The notes under the pieces are model-generated. The model saw nothing but the letters and a program-made list of their open reading frames with translations, searched no databases and was not told the origin of the DNA. Made by a program: the position numbers and the translations under genes. 64,000 nt of DNA from Cyanobacterium aponinum PCC 10605 (GTDB lineage Bacteria; Cyanobacteriota; Cyanobacteriia; Cyanobacteriales; Cyanobacteriaceae): assembly GCF_000317675.1 (NCBI RefSeq), contig NC_019776.1:558001-622000 (forward strand), written 5' to 3'. Of the stretch, positions 40,365 through 47,191 are shown piece after piece. How positions within the stretch are numbered: the stretch's first letter is position 1; each line of letters opens with the position of its first letter.

Positions 40365-42239
40365 ATGGGAGATAAACACTCAGATTTAATTCTAATCATT
40401 GATGATAACGCTACCTATAGAAAAGTCTTGGTTAAGATTTTAGAGCAGGAAAATTTTAAAACTTTTGAGTGTAAAAATGGCTATCAAGGAATAGAAAAAG
40501 CTTTAAAAATACAGCCTAATTTAATCCTTTTAGATATAAAAATGCCTGAAATTAATGGATTTGAGACTTGTATTGAAATAAAAAAGAATAGTGCGATCGC
40601 AAATATTCCCATTATTTTTATGACCTCATTAGACGATTTAGAATATAAAATAAAGGGCTTAAAAATAGGTGGAGTTGATTATATAACAAAACCATTTCAA
40701 CCAGAAGAGGTATTATATAGAGTTAAAATACATTTAAAATTAGTCAATATAAACAAAACACTAAGCCATAAAAATAAACAATTAGAAGCAGAGGTAAAAG
40801 CTAGAAAAAGAGCTGAAAAAAAACTAATTAAATTGAATAAAAATTTGGAGGATAAAGTTAATGAAAAAACAAAACATTTACATCAAGCATTATTAGAGTT
40901 AAGACAAAGAGAAAAGGAATTAGCATATAAAGCCTACTATGATGATTTAACAAAATTACCAAATCGTAGCTGGCTTAATTCTTATTTAACTGATTTAATT
41001 CAAGAAGCAAACAAAAAAAACTTGAGCAACGCAGATGTTTTTCATTCTATTCTCTTTATTGATTTAGATCGTTTTAAAGTAATTAATGATAGTTTAGGAC
41101 ATTTAATCGGAGATCAATTATTAGTCTTGGTTGCTGAAAGATTGATACATTTTTCTCCTGAAAATTCTCTTGTTAGTCGTTTTGGAGGAGATGAGTTTAT
41201 TATTCTCTTACAAGATGATAAATGTGTAGAAAGTGTCACTAATACTGTTAAGTTACTGTTGCAAGAATTACAAAAACCTTTCATTGTTAATAATTATAAA
41301 TTGTTTATTAATGCGAGTATTGGGGTGGCAATTCATAATTATCAAAAAGTAGATGTTACTAATATTTTAAGGGATGGAGATGTTGCCTTATATCAGGCAA
41401 AAAAAAATGGGAAGGGAACTTATGTTATTTTAGATGAAACTACCAGAAATCAGGCTTTATCTAGGCTAGAGTTAGAAAACGATTTAAGAAAGGCATTGGA
41501 AGAAGAAAAATTAGACTTATATTATCAACCGATTTTTTGCTTAAAAAATAATATTATTAAAGGTTTTGAAGCCTTAATTCGTTGGAATCATCCCCAATTT
41601 GGTTTTATTTCTCCACAATTATTTGTTTCCATTGCAGAGGAAATAGGCTTAATCAATTGGCTAAACGATTTTGTATTGACAAAAGCCTGTCATCAATTGG
41701 GAATTTGGTTTTCTTCTTTTCGGAATTTTCCCCATATATTTGTCAATGTTAATTTATCAATTATTAATTTATCTCAAAGTAACATTACAGAAAAAATAGA
41801 CTATTTTTTAACTCAAAAATTATTTCCTGAGAGTTGTCTAAAAATAGAAATTACGGAGGGATGTTTAGAAGATGCAACTTCTTCAACCTTTGAGATTTTA
41901 AACAAGATAAATGATAGGGGAATTAACCTTTGTATTGATGATTTTGGTACGGGATACTCTTCCCTTAGTCGCTTACATTCTTTGCCGATTAAAACTCTCA
42001 AAATAGATAAAAGTTTTGTGGACAAAATTGGTACGCAGGTGAGTAGTCAAACTATTATTAAAACGATTCTAGCTTTAGCTCATAGTTTGGAAATGGAAGT
42101 TGTAGCCGAAGGAGTAGAAAATAAAATGCAGAAAGATATTTTAACTTATCTTGGTTGTGATTTTGCTCAAGGTTATTTCTATTCTCCTCCTTTAGATGTC
42201 AATAGTGCCACTGATTTTTTGGCCTCAGTTTTTGAATAA
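40365..42239 (+). CDS. Response regulator with GGDEF and EAL domains
   Basis: 624 residues: receiver domain (about 8-125, phospho-acceptor Asp in LILLDIKMPEING), coiled coil (about 130-185), GGDEF domain (about 195-355, intact FGGDEF) and EAL domain (about 375-620). The EAL site looks intact: GFEALIRW, VNVNLS, KIEITE, IDDFGTGYSSL, KIDKSFV and AEGVE. Both synthesis and breakdown of cyclic di-GMP are possible, set by phosphorylation from an unlinked histidine kinase. No inhibitory RxxD site is obvious before GGDEF. Cytoplasmic. Confidence 0.95.
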   Translation: MGDKHSDLILIIDDNATYRKVLVKILEQENFKTFECKNGYQGIEKALKIQPNLILLDIKMPEINGFETCIEIKKNSAIANIPIIFMTSLDDLEYKIKGLKIGGVDYITKPFQPEEVLYRVKIHLKLVNINKTLSHKNKQLEAEVKARKRAEKKLIKLNKNLEDKVNEKTKHLHQALLELRQREKELAYKAYYDDLTKLPNRSWLNSYLTDLIQEANKKNLSNADVFHSILFIDLDRFKVINDSLGHLIGDQLLVLVAERLIHFSPENSLVSRFGGDEFIILLQDDKCVESVTNTVKLLLQELQKPFIVNNYKLFINASIGVAIHNYQKVDVTNILRDGDVALYQAKKNGKGTYVILDETTRNQALSRLELENDLRKALEEEKLDLYYQPIFCLKNNIIKGFEALIRWNHPQFGFISPQLFVSIAEEIGLINWLNDFVLTKACHQLGIWFSSFRNFPHIFVNVNLSIINLSQSNITEKIDYFLTQKLFPESCLKIEITEGCLEDATSSTFEILNKINDRGINLCIDDFGTGYSSLSRLHSLPIKTLKIDKSFVDKIGTQVSSQTIIKTILALAHSLEMEVVAEGVENKMQKDILTYLGCDFAQGYFYSPPLDVNSATDFLASVFE

Positions 42240-42376: not shown

Positions 42377-43450
42377 ATGAAAACTAATACATTATCAGTT
42401 AATCGCATTTTAAATCCTACAGGATGGTTACTTTTAATCTTGCTAACCTTAATTCTCTCTACACTTTCTTTTGTATCCTTAGATAAAAATCAAACTCTGC
42501 CTCTGTGGATAGCGACGCTCATTAGCGGTATCTTAGGTTATATCGTTGTTCCCATACTACAGAAAATTAAAGCCTCTCAAATTATTCAAGAAGACGGCCC
42601 TCAAAGTCACCTCAAAAAAGCTGGAACTCCTACAATGGGGGGAATTTTTTTCATTCCCACTGGCTTAATTATTGCTCTAATCATGGCAAATTTCAGTCCT
42701 AATGTCATTGCCTTAGTATTACTAACTTTTGCCTATAGCTTTATAGGTTGGGTTGATGATTGGCAAATTTTGCGTAAAAAAACAAATTTAGGCTTAACTC
42801 CTAAACAAAAATTAATTTTACAAGTGGGTTTTGCCATTATTTTTTGTGTCTGGATGTTTTTCACTCAACCGGCATCTATCACAAATGTTACTCTACCATT
42901 CAACATCATTTTGCCTCTAAGTTTTCTTTTTTGGTTTGTTGCTGTTTTTGTCATGGTAGCCGAGAGTAATGCTACTAATTTAACGGATGGTGTTGATGGA
43001 TTAGCAGGAGGCACAGGTGCGATCGCATTTTTAGGTTTAGGAATATTAATAGCTAACTCCCATCCTGATTTACTGATTTTTTGTTTAGCCATTAGTGGTA
43101 GTTGTTTAGGATTTGTGTTACACAACCGCAATAAAGCCTCTGTATTTATGGGTGATACTGGCTCACTGGCTTTAGGGGCAGGATTAGCCGGAGTGGGTAT
43201 TTTAAGCGAAAACCTATGGGCTTTATTTATTATCAGTTTGTTATTTTTTATTGAATCTTTATCTGTTATTGCACAGGTAACATATTATAAAGCAACAAAA
43301 GACTCAGAAGGAAAAGGAAAAAGATTATTTAAAATGGCGCCTATTCATCATCACTTAGAATTAAGCGGCTGGAGTGAAACACAAATAGTGGGTATTTTTT
43401 ATATCATTAATACAATTTTAGTCTTGATGGTAGTCTCAATTAGTAATTAA
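42377..43450 (+). CDS. mraY: Phospho-N-acetylmuramoyl-pentapeptide transferase
   Basis: 357 residues with about ten membrane helices. Transfers phospho-MurNAc-pentapeptide to undecaprenyl phosphate to make lipid I for peptidoglycan. Motifs: GTPTMGGIFFIP, VDDWQILRKKTNLGL, ATNLTDGVDGLAGG, FMGDTGSLALG and MAPIHHHLELSGW. No other cell-wall gene adjoins. The TTAA of a modular repeat overlaps its stop codon. Confidence 0.97.
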   Translation: MKTNTLSVNRILNPTGWLLLILLTLILSTLSFVSLDKNQTLPLWIATLISGILGYIVVPILQKIKASQIIQEDGPQSHLKKAGTPTMGGIFFIPTGLIIALIMANFSPNVIALVLLTFAYSFIGWVDDWQILRKKTNLGLTPKQKLILQVGFAIIFCVWMFFTQPASITNVTLPFNIILPLSFLFWFVAVFVMVAESNATNLTDGVDGLAGGTGAIAFLGLGILIANSHPDLLIFCLAISGSCLGFVLHNRNKASVFMGDTGSLALGAGLAGVGILSENLWALFIISLLFFIESLSVIAQVTYYKATKDSEGKGKRLFKMAPIHHHLELSGWSETQIVGIFYIINTILVLMVVSISN

Positions 43451-44042: not shown

Positions 44043-46523
44043 ATGAGTGAAGCACAAGAATTTCGTCACATTCTCGTGATTGAAGATAGAAAAGGCAGAA
44101 GAATCGTCTTTTTAGAAGAAAGCAACTACACTATCGGGCGAGATTCTCATAACCCCATTATTCTTTACGATTATCAAGTTTCAAGAACCCACGCCACTTT
44201 AATTCGTAAAATGGATGAAGAGGGAGAAAATTTTTCTTATCGCTTAATAGATGGAGATTTACAAGGAAAAAAAAGTACTAATGGTGTATTTGTCAACGGG
44301 CATTCAACTATTTCCCATGAGTTGAAACACGGAGATAGTATTCGTTTTGGTACTGATGCAAAAGCCAATTATTATATTGTCCCTAGCGATTCTAGCATTG
44401 ATCTTTTCAATCCAGAAAACTTAGACCGCATATCCGCTTCACGAGTAACTCTAACTAATCAATCCAGTGAAACAATGATTAGTAAAGAGGAAAATTCTAG
44501 TAATCCTGAAGACCAACAAGAGTTGATTCGTTTAGCCTCATTCCCTGAATTAAGTCCAAATCCTATTATTGAGCTAGATTGGGAAGGAAATATTACTTAT
44601 ATAAATCCTGCCGCCAGTATTAAGTTTGAGACAATTCATGAGGATAAATTAGACCATCCCATTCTTTCGGGTTTATTAACTGAGTACAATAACAGGCAAG
44701 GAAATTTATTTCTCAGAGAGGTAAAAATCGGCTCAGAAGTCTTTGAGCAGTATGTTCATTATTTGTCTGAAAAAAAACTGGTAAGAAGTTATATTTATGA
44801 CTTTACTCAAAGAAAACAAACTGAAGCTCAATTAAAAGATAGTCAATCTCGTTACCTTGCCATTCTTAAACATATTTCTGAGGGAGTTTTTCTTGCCTAT
44901 GCCAGTAATCGCAGAATTATTGAAATCAACGATGGTTTTTCTAAATTGTTAGGATATTCTTCCGAAGACTTAAGTAATTTAACTCTCTACAATATTGTTG
45001 CTAGTGATTTAGCCAGTTTCAATAAAGATTTAACTCAAGTACAAGAAACGAAGCAAGATTTACTAGAAGAGTATCTTTATCGTCGTCCTGATGGTACTTT
45101 GGTAAATTTAGAGTCGAGTGTTAGTTTAATTACTTATCAGAATAAAGAAATTTTTTGTTTTGTACTTCGTAATCCTAATAAGCAGGTAAGTTCTACACAA
45201 GACTATTCCAATTATTTAGCATTTCATGATGCTCTTTTAAATATTCCCAATCAAAATTTATTTGAACAACAATTAGAAATTGCGATCGCAAATGCTCAAC
45301 GTTATCAATATCTAATGGGAGTCTTGTTTGCACAAATCGAAAACTGGCAAGAATATCAAAATCAACACCCAAAAGATGAAAGTGAGAAACTACTAAAAAA
45401 CTTTACTCAAATTTTTCAATCATGCCTTAGAACAGGAGATCTAATAGCCAGATGGGATGAAGACAAATTTGCTGTTTTATTTCCCCATATCAGAGGACCA
45501 AGAGATCCTGCTAGAATTACAAAAAAAATATCCTCAACTCTTACTAGCTACTTACAAGAACAAACAGCCAATAAACAAGTTAAACTAGAGTTGAAATTAA
45601 GTTTATTGATTTATCCCATAGATGGGGAAGATAAATCCTTAATCACCAAAAACGGTTTACTATCCCTTGAACAAGTGAAAATAAGCAATCCTAATTATGG
45701 AGCAACAGGATTTAACCTCACTCCAAAAGGTGCTAGTCTTCTGAAACTAGAAAACTTAATTGGTACAGCCGTAAAAGAACAACAATTCTTCCTTTGTTAT
45801 CAACCTCAAACAGATATTAACACAAGGGAACTAACGGGCTTAGAAACTCTACTGCGGTGGGAGCATCCTGAGTTAGGAAAAATTACTCCCCGTCACTTTT
45901 TGCGTCTAACAGAAGAAACTGATTTTATGTTGCCCCTAGGGATTTGGATTTTACAAACCGCCACCATGCAGATGCAAAAGTGGACTCACGAAAACATTTC
46001 ACCTCTACCTATCGGGGTTAACATTTCTGCCCGTCAATTCTGCCAACCCAACTTTTTAGAAACAATTATCAAAATTCTCGAACAAACTGGATTACCTGCC
46101 CATTTACTGGAGTTGGAAATCACGGAAAACTGTTTCTTACACAATCCTGACTATGCCTATCAAATTTTGAATAAATTATCAGAACAAAAAGTTCGCCTCT
46201 GTTTTGATGGTTTTGGCAGTGGTACTTCTTCCCTTGTTTATTTACAAAAAGTACCCTTTAACACTGTAAAAATTAGCCCTTCTATTATCACTCAATTAGA
46301 TAATAACTCTCAAAATCAATCTTTAGTGCAATGTATGAGTGCATTTTGTCAGGGTTATAATTCCCGTCTAGTGGCTGTAGGTGTGGAAAAACTAGAACAA
46401 ATGGAATTACTAAGAAATTTGGGTTGTCATCAAATACAAGGTAATTTACTAAGTCGTCCTTTACCCTCTAAAGATATTACTACTTTCTTAAATAAAGGAG
46501 ATCACCAGTTAACGAATTCCTAG
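44043..46523 (+). CDS. FHA-PAS-GGDEF-EAL protein with degenerate catalytic sites
   Basis: 826 residues: FHA domain (about 10-115, TIGRDSHNPI and VSRTHATL), two PAS-like regions (about 165-265 and 275-385), a GGDEF-like domain (about 395-545) and an EAL-like domain (about 575-820). The GGDEF motif is replaced by RWDEDKF. The EAL site has ETL, FDGFGSG instead of DDFGTG, VKISPS instead of KIDKS, and AVGVE instead of AEGVE, so three catalytic acids are lost. It probably reads phosphothreonine partners and c-di-GMP rather than making or breaking it. 593 bp after mraY, on the same strand. Confidence 0.9.
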   Translation: MSEAQEFRHILVIEDRKGRRIVFLEESNYTIGRDSHNPIILYDYQVSRTHATLIRKMDEEGENFSYRLIDGDLQGKKSTNGVFVNGHSTISHELKHGDSIRFGTDAKANYYIVPSDSSIDLFNPENLDRISASRVTLTNQSSETMISKEENSSNPEDQQELIRLASFPELSPNPIIELDWEGNITYINPAASIKFETIHEDKLDHPILSGLLTEYNNRQGNLFLREVKIGSEVFEQYVHYLSEKKLVRSYIYDFTQRKQTEAQLKDSQSRYLAILKHISEGVFLAYASNRRIIEINDGFSKLLGYSSEDLSNLTLYNIVASDLASFNKDLTQVQETKQDLLEEYLYRRPDGTLVNLESSVSLITYQNKEIFCFVLRNPNKQVSSTQDYSNYLAFHDALLNIPNQNLFEQQLEIAIANAQRYQYLMGVLFAQIENWQEYQNQHPKDESEKLLKNFTQIFQSCLRTGDLIARWDEDKFAVLFPHIRGPRDPARITKKISSTLTSYLQEQTANKQVKLELKLSLLIYPIDGEDKSLITKNGLLSLEQVKISNPNYGATGFNLTPKGASLLKLENLIGTAVKEQQFFLCYQPQTDINTRELTGLETLLRWEHPELGKITPRHFLRLTEETDFMLPLGIWILQTATMQMQKWTHENISPLPIGVNISARQFCQPNFLETIIKILEQTGLPAHLLELEITENCFLHNPDYAYQILNKLSEQKVRLCFDGFGSGTSSLVYLQKVPFNTVKISPSIITQLDNNSQNQSLVQCMSAFCQGYNSRLVAVGVEKLEQMELLRNLGCHQIQGNLLSRPLPSKDITTFLNKGDHQLTNS

Positions 46524-46615
46524 CTACTGCGTAAATTTTTTTTAGCCAAAATAATTTTCAGGTTAAATATACTTGATTATATTATTAACTATCAATGAAA
46601 AAGGAATATTATAGA

Positions 46616-47191
46616 ATGTCAGACAATCCTAGTTTATTTTTGCCAGAATCTCAATTGTTAATTCTTAATATAGTTTGTGCTTTAGCATGGGCTGATAATG
46701 AATTGAGTGAAGAAGAAACGGAAATACTATTAGAAAAATTTAAGTCGAATCTTCCTCCTGAACCAGAACCGATTTACTTTGATGATCCTGACCCTTTTTA
46801 TAATACTATGGGGTTATCTTCATTTACTGTTGCTGAACAAACTCAAGCCAGAGTTAATGCAGAAATTGCTTTTAAAGACATTTTAAATCGCTATAAACAA
46901 AATCCAATACCCCTTTCTGATTTAGTATCCCAACTAAAAACTAATGAAGACCGTTGTTTATGTGCAAAATTAGCTTATGTGGTGATTAAAGCTAGTCCTG
47001 ACAATCAAGGTAATTTGATTTGTGCTGATGAAAAAATGGTATATCGTCAACTGATTCAATTGTTAAATCTTGATCCTGAAGTCGTGCAAAAGATAGAACA
47101 AAGGGCAGATTATGAGTTAGATAAATTTCAACATCCTTTTAAAGCCTTTATGGGAAATGTGAAAAAGTTTTTTCTGAAAAAAATTATTTAA
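46616..47191 (+). CDS. TerB-like (tellurite resistance B) family protein
   Basis: 191 residues from ATG 46616, which has AAGGA about 10 bp upstream; an earlier ATG at 46595 has no visible ribosome site. NIVCALAWADNELSEEETEILLEKF is the TerB opening, with acidic residues on the first helices; a second similar segment follows (CAKLAYVVIKASPDNQGNLICADEKMVY). A Pro-rich insertion (PPEPEPIYFDDPDPF) separates them. TerB-like domains are membrane-associated stress proteins of unclear chemistry. A repeat end shares bases with the stop codon. Confidence 0.75.
   Translation: MSDNPSLFLPESQLLILNIVCALAWADNELSEEETEILLEKFKSNLPPEPEPIYFDDPDPFYNTMGLSSFTVAEQTQARVNAEIAFKDILNRYKQNPIPLSDLVSQLKTNEDRCLCAKLAYVVIKASPDNQGNLICADEKMVYRQLIQLLNLDPEVVQKIEQRADYELDKFQHPFKAFMGNVKKFFLKKII

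Follow-up and report, generated by a model that had tools for sequence, protein, structure and literature searches.

A degenerate FHA-PAS-GGDEF-EAL protein of Cyanobacterium aponinum as a candidate c-di-GMP receptor in a conserved three-gene set

Domains and active sites of protein A

We analysed a window of 64,000 nucleotides from Cyanobacterium aponinum PCC 10605 (GCF_000317675.1, contig NC_019776.1, positions 558,001 to 622,000), in which an ATG-initiated gene at 44043..46523 encodes a protein of 826 residues, here called A, delimited by its open reading frame, Pfam matches and a structural model. A and its parts, mraY and the REC-GGDEF-EAL gene lie on the forward strand. Upstream of A lie mraY (42377..43450), so named in an earlier sequence-only reading of the window, and, beyond it, a REC-GGDEF-EAL gene (40365..42239); directly downstream is a gene (46595-47191) whose TerB-like assignment is weak and below the Pfam cut-off. 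Pfam matches over cut-off in A comprised FHA (residues 29-103), PAS (270-375), GGDEF (393-531) and EAL (575-806), and no REC match was found by Pfam, the N-terminus being the FHA domain. This bears out the FHA-PAS-GGDEF-EAL layout given by the sequence-only reading, except that a second PAS-like unit at residues 158-262 had been overlooked. The full order is FHA (residues 5-118; 44055..44396), PAS1 (158-262; 44514..44828), PAS2 (264-380; 44832..45182; Pfam and model), a GGDEF domain without catalytic motif (388-535; 45204..45647; Pfam and alignment) and EAL (566-818; 45738..46496).

The AlphaFold2 model used was built from 123 family proteins (mean pLDDT 85); because its pTM was 0.44, the domain arrangement was not interpreted. 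A model from the 13 orthologs of A was poor (pLDDT 56) and was set aside. All five domains were confidently modelled, the GGDEF and EAL folds at high confidence. PAS1, the most conserved domain of A, is predicted to be PAS-like from its alignment to DosP and its appearance in the model rather than from a profile (Pfam reached only E 0.1): alignments to DosP (PAS-PAS-GGDEF-EAL) begin at residues 161-162, and pLDDT is 87-95 over residues 171-260, except for 68 at 211-220. The EAL model fits solved EAL domains at 1.6-2 angstrom (MucR, MorA, PdeA), and active phosphodiesterases match it best (MorA, Bd1971, PdeA and MucR, Z 33-34.5; FimX, Z 27-29). The EAL domain has thus lost its catalytic residues, and its fold appears to be intact.

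Loss of both catalytic sites, which the sequence-only reading had pointed out, is real. The former GGDEF motif reads DEDKF (residues 472-476 within RWDEDKF; 45456..45470), and three EAL acids are replaced: the second Asp of DDFGTG by G723 (D722-G723; 46206..46211; Gly or Asn in the 13 orthologs), the KID Asp by an invariant Ser, S745 (K743-I-S745; 46269..46277), and the catalytic Glu by an invariant Val, V779, in AVGVE (residues 778-782; 46374..46388). Retained in all 13 orthologs are E601, N660, E692, D722, K743 and Q799, the ExLxR residues, and the Arg and Asp of the RxxD I-site (R463-D466; 45429..45440). In the FHA domain, G32, R33, S47, R48, H50, T79, N80 and G81 occur in 13/13 orthologs; they include the phosphothreonine-reader residues (GR, SRxH, NG) that we take to define the pocket. 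The first Thr of A is T30, within the FHA domain, and a Thr-bearing tail before that domain is absent. Two threonines in the otherwise variable linker, T136 and T144, are invariant in 13/13 orthologs and are candidate phosphosites.

A conserved three-gene set

A was searched for in 60 related genomes and its neighbourhoods were read; the family considered here is 15 genomes, 13 of which have a full-length A (the ortholog set, from four genera). In 11 of the 15, A stands in tandem on the same strand with two paralogs, in the order A-B-C with gaps of 8-427 bases: B (850-880 residues, FHA-PAS1-PAS2-GGDEF-EAL) shares about 37% identity with A; C has 699-720 residues and the domain order FHA-PAS1-GGDEF-EAL. 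Among these 11, C is ended by a contig edge in G013 and split in G010 (L053:2579-4681), where a TAA stop parts FHA-PAS1 from GGDEF-EAL. G002, a MAG of 67% completeness, retains shortened pieces of the trio in A-B-C order, and an internal deletion has removed PAS2 and most of the GGDEF domain from its A. G011 carries an in-frame fusion of 1240 residues (L061:7546-11268) that joins A residues 1-672 to C residues 138-711; the A part ends inside the EAL domain, whose second half is missing, the C part is PAS1-GGDEF-EAL, and B is absent at this locus. Both genus members, the window's genome (G000) and G001, have A without B and C beside it, and the window's genome keeps a dispersed trio: B lies at C1:960715, C lies near C1:3757449, and both share about 66% identity with their tandem counterparts in G014. 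By gene order and homology, A-B-C is an old, conserved three-gene set of which A is the degenerate member.

The sequence-only reading had joined A to the REC-GGDEF-EAL gene across mraY as an enzyme/receptor module and had proposed looking for their linkage in relatives. The REC-GGDEF-EAL gene is intact, as had been stated (GGDEF and all eight core EAL residues are present), and has no RxxD. We ran the linkage check, and the pairing proved to be a genus-level arrangement (2/15 family genomes) and not conserved. A close match to the REC-GGDEF-EAL protein (95%) exists only in G001, and the next best is 41% (E<=1e-120 across the 15 family genomes, two of the 13 non-genus genomes being only 63-67% complete). 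mraY is present in 14 of the 15. It adjoins A in the two genus members, G000 and G001, and in none of the remaining 12, where it lies on another contig or more than 170 kb from A. These searches rule out a conserved mraY/REC-GGDEF-EAL linkage of A. That A senses c-di-GMP made by that gene's product, as their position on either side of mraY in the two genus members might suggest, is very improbable: the other 13 family genomes all have A or a remnant of it, with no close match to the REC gene. An enzyme/receptor set does exist, with other members than those proposed: judged by gene order, the conserved partners of A are its FHA paralogs B and C, in place of the mraY-side gene. The TerB-like gene was likewise rejected as a partner; it occurs in 8 of the 15 family genomes (E<=1e-20), is adjacent to A only within the genus and lies 8 kb from A in G005.

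Catalytic and I-site residues are divided among the three proteins. All 13 full-length A proteins have RxxD, and none has an intact GGDEF motif or a complete set of eight core EAL residues. The 13 B proteins all have RxxD and complete core EAL residues and none has an intact GGDEF motif, and the 10 C proteins all have intact GGDEF motifs and complete core EAL residues and none has RxxD. These counts omit the G011 fusion, the contig-cut C of G013 (L058), the C of G001, the fragmentary A and B of G002 and the split C of G010, whose motifs are like those of other C proteins; the partial A of G002 reads S723, KIS and AVGVE. Also left out were duplicate rows (L089-L093, L095 and L101, from G013, G010, G004, G040, G031, G012 and G002), L098 (98.7% identical to L074) and L094, from a Gloeocapsa MAG, whose inclusion changes no statement; the A-like protein of L094 has DSHQF, keeps RxxD, lacks N, D2 and E3 among the core EAL residues, and shares 86% identity with its G038 counterpart. 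The distribution of the losses indicates that they are old, with both sites already missing from the common ancestor of all A proteins in the family.

The retained residues stand out from their surroundings. The EAL positions E601, L603, R605, K743, Q799 and P806, which we presume to contact the ligand, are invariant in the 13 A proteins. Ligand and first-metal positions together are 10/10 invariant against 94/253 EAL columns (hypergeometric P 3.7e-5), and the I-site stretch at residues 460-471 (SCLRxxDLxARW) is 9/12 invariant against a GGDEF background of 30/148; both sets were picked with the invariant columns in view, and P values are descriptive. The stretch around RxxD is the most conserved part of A's dead GGDEF domain, any other 12-residue stretch having at most five invariant positions. 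The corresponding stretch of B is 5/12 invariant; it retains R and D but is not where conservation of the GGDEF domain peaks; that of C is 2/12 invariant, both at the end, and RWGGDEF is invariant in the 10 C proteins. A putative secondary I-site Arg position, which we assume to match R420 in PleD numbering, is Arg in 12/13 A, 13/13 B and 0/10 C. Retention of the ligand residues and RxxD in A points to c-di-GMP binding.

Mean pairwise identities over ten shared genomes were 81% (FHA), 87% (PAS1), 65% (PAS2), 55% (GGDEF) and 68% (EAL) for A; 76, 71, 59, 65 and 60% for the same domains of B; and 59% (FHA), 60% (PAS1), 62% (GGDEF) and 68% (EAL) for C, which has no PAS2. The FHA and PAS1 domains of A are the best conserved of the whole set, and the GGDEF domain is the least conserved part of A, a contrast suggesting that A acts through its front domains. 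Its dN/dS is 0-0.26 across five domains and six genome pairs. That A is a decaying gene heading for loss is scarcely credible: both active sites are gone and copies are shortened or fused in G002 and G011, but the low dN/dS, the full length in 13/15 genomes and an FHA-PAS1 region more conserved than that of B and C all speak against it. As judged from these substitution patterns, A is not a pseudogene and is kept under purifying selection.

The wider FHA GGDEF-EAL family

The first 262 residues of A (FHA-PAS1) were matched in 124 of the 291 genomes of the order (E<=1e-25), and A belongs to a cyanobacterial FHA-PAS1 GGDEF-EAL family, defined here by N-terminal homology over about 260 residues. 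Among 130 FHA GGDEF-EAL proteins (near-copies included), both sites are intact in 52, the EAL site alone in 48, the GGDEF site alone in 3 and neither in 27. E601, K743 and Q799 are invariant over 123 aligned family proteins, an alignment that omits three of the 126 references. In the best tree (106 proteins, quick method), EAL changes state at least 8 times and GGDEF at least 11 times, and the 13 A proteins group together with full support. Outside the family, the nearest relatives of A differ among themselves. The eight core EAL residues are complete in the proteins of G031 and G040; D2 (here replaced by N or another residue) and E3 (by Q) are, as in A, lost from those of G038 and G063, the sisters of A with support 0.76. 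Given this position and these losses, the loss of D2 and E3 may be older than the family of A, which is itself marked out by Val779 and Ser745 in its A proteins. In 17 other FHA-family EAL domains with core losses, the residues affected are D2 (11), N (8), E3 (7), D1 (4), E2 (2) and E1 (1), and K/Q in none. A general rule that a dead GGDEF domain keeps RxxD was rejected for the FHA family: outside A, RxxD is present in 52/62 dead and 41/55 intact domains, and independent pairs show no link. Nor did dead EAL and dead GGDEF domains go together on the tree (on average 3.0 of 7 pairs agreed in direction, not significant).

Other tandem FHA-GGDEF-EAL arrays occur in Crocosphaera-like strains, Chroococcus FPU101, Aphanothece hegewaldii, Gomphosphaeria and others. 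Several of their first genes have lost the GGDEF motif (GSDEF in Crocosphaera-like strains, ESDEF in Chroococcus and Aphanothece, DSxTL in G049, G089 and G289), and these keep the eight core EAL residues. The A-B-C division is not strict elsewhere: first genes of G040, G063 and G243 have an intact GGDEF motif, and in the arrays of G049, G089 and G289 no gene has one. Arrays of another family (L085, L086, L135, L136, L137 and L138) have all listed members GGDEF-degenerate and some EAL domains damaged. Ten hand-picked array neighbours gave no output target: eight had Pfam matches with no family in common and two had no match. The Crocosphaera-like arrays (L099:8512-9849, L100:6650-7995, L102:5569-6908, L103:3231-4525, L105:2864-4158) share two divergent upstream genes of 187 and about 233-250 residues, which are equated between strains by their length and position alone. 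In L099 the longer of the two resembles type II secretion protein C weakly, with a match below the cut-off, a possible clue that the output involves a pilus or secretion. FHA-PAS1 is also found on histidine kinases (L130:2440-4482, L131:7914-9947, L141:5667-7664; the first two with a receiver domain), which adjoin GGDEF-EAL genes that in L130 and L131 are also FHA-PAS1. The FHA-PAS1 module may be a shared docking address.

Both sites are lost in only two of the 18 EAL proteins in the window's genome, A and L018. L018 (about G000:C1:549984-552113, some 6 kb before the window) is an FHA-PAS-GGDEF-EAL protein of 709 residues with SADEF and with E1, N and D1 of its EAL domain lost. L013 (G000:C1:194334-195032), REC-type by eye, has an intact GGDEF motif and an EAL domain with D2 replaced by N and the catalytic Glu by K. 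In the same genome we count 20 protein kinase domains above cut-off, one of them interrupted by a stop. PilZ matches occur in 11/15 family genomes and ComFB, the protein type to which CdgR belongs, in 15/15, so other c-di-GMP receptors probably coexist with A. In the open-licence literature we found no publication on slr1951 (the FHA domain of PDB 3hx1) or on tandem FHA-GGDEF-EAL trios.

A probable receptor role, its alternatives and known systems

On balance, we consider it likely that A serves as a c-di-GMP receptor without catalysis of its own, whose FHA domain docks on phosphothreonine, and that it works beside a predicted phosphodiesterase, B, and a predicted feedback-free bifunctional enzyme, C; A is probably a sensor rather than an enzyme. 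The coupling of an FHA domain to a receptor role, anticipated by the sequence-only reading, gains from the conservation across the family. A would bind c-di-GMP in its EAL pocket without hydrolysis, perhaps also holding a c-di-GMP dimer at the I-site, and binding would shift its FHA-PAS end, which would dock on a phosphothreonine partner or be gated by Ser/Thr kinases. B would lower, and C would make or remove, the local c-di-GMP that A reads.

Several observations weigh against such a receptor. The EAL pocket is dispensable in G011, where A is cut at residue 672, and the A of G002 is without PAS2 and most of its GGDEF domain; RxxD retention is not special to dead GGDEF domains in the wider family; and the low dN/dS and invariant residues could also fit a ligand-free scaffold. 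A ligand-free scaffold or heterodimer role is a real rival. A might be a pseudoenzyme partner whose GGDEF/EAL heterodimers with B or C set the activity of these two, rather than a free-standing receptor. The same-strand tandem, the recurrence of first genes with a lost GGDEF motif and the G011 fusion, which attaches A's N-terminal 672 residues to C's PAS1-GGDEF-EAL, would fit heterodimers. The trio is, however, far apart in the window's genus, yet all three genes are retained in the window's genome; elsewhere degenerate-GGDEF first genes keep their core EAL residues, and first genes with intact GGDEF exist. We regard the heterodimer role as unlikely.

Two further views concern what the retained residues do. 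A weak or conditional phosphodiesterase acting through an intact first metal site (E601, N660, E692, D722) would explain why these residues, K743 and Q799 are invariant, but the second DDFGTG Asp, the AEGVE Glu and the KID Asp are each replaced in 13/13 orthologs, and TBD1265 is reported to lose its phosphodiesterase activity when the first Glu of ExxE is changed (PMC12943098); we judge residual activity in A quite improbable. It is distinctly doubtful, if conceivable, that the trio splits the jobs of one GGDEF-EAL protein: C would be the turnover enzyme without a product-feedback site, the dead GGDEF domains of A and B would keep only that site and sense C's c-di-GMP there, and the common FHA-PAS1 would put all three on one phosphorylated partner, giving product feedback in trans that Ser/Thr kinases could switch.

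Comparison with known systems, for which we draw on extracts of the cited papers, sets a receptor reading of A in context. CdgSH (All1175) of Anabaena PCC 7120 is bifunctional with dominant phosphodiesterase activity and has all catalytic residues (PMC8682488); A is without the intact GGDEF and EAL active sites of such FHA-PAS-GGDEF-EAL enzymes, and no GAF domain was found in it, a distinction that follows the description of CdgSH and not an alignment. DgcB of Bdellovibrio has, beside GGDEF, an FHA domain that reads phosphothreonine, and its cyclase is active and under the control of an N-terminal phospho-tail of the same protein (PMC6733907); in A, no threonine precedes residue 30 and the cyclase motif is missing. 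Microcystis FHA-GGDEF-EAL hybrids occur one per genome (23/24) with EAL residues conserved (PMC7063779), and Sll1895 of Synechocystis, with the same domain classes as A, is described alone (PMC4632739); unlike A-B-C, neither is placed in a tandem set in these extracts.

FimX has degenerate GGDEF and EAL domains and binds c-di-GMP through EAL (PMC8389850), and both FimX and LapD are listed among EAL-type receptors (PMC10519070). A shows the sequence features of this type: the GGDEF motif and EAL catalytic/metal residues are lost and the pocket is kept. FimX (Pseudomonas, Xanthomonas) and LapD (P. fluorescens) chains match the A model. A has FHA-PAS-PAS where FimX has REC-PAS, and so differs from the REC-PAS-GGDEF-EAL architecture; LapD has a membrane/HAMP part, which is absent from A. 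In sequence and fold A is nearer to the phosphodiesterases MorA and MucR than to FimX or LapD, and it keeps RxxD. PopA and PelD bind c-di-GMP at the I-site and have lost catalysis. They are receptors on a GGDEF-type domain (PMC10519070), and A resembles them in keeping RxxD in a dead GGDEF domain (R463 and D466 in 13/13) and differs in also having an EAL domain with ligand residues.

Most steps of the receptor reading of A are testable with purified protein. The complementary losses in tandem duplicates, of the cyclase site in A and B and of the feedback site in C, offer a direct route to study the change from enzyme to receptor. Dead GGDEF-EAL receptors are, to our knowledge, best known from proteobacteria; if the receptor reading is true, A would be an FHA-linked dead receptor in cyanobacteria, tying Ser/Thr phosphorylation to c-di-GMP sensing.
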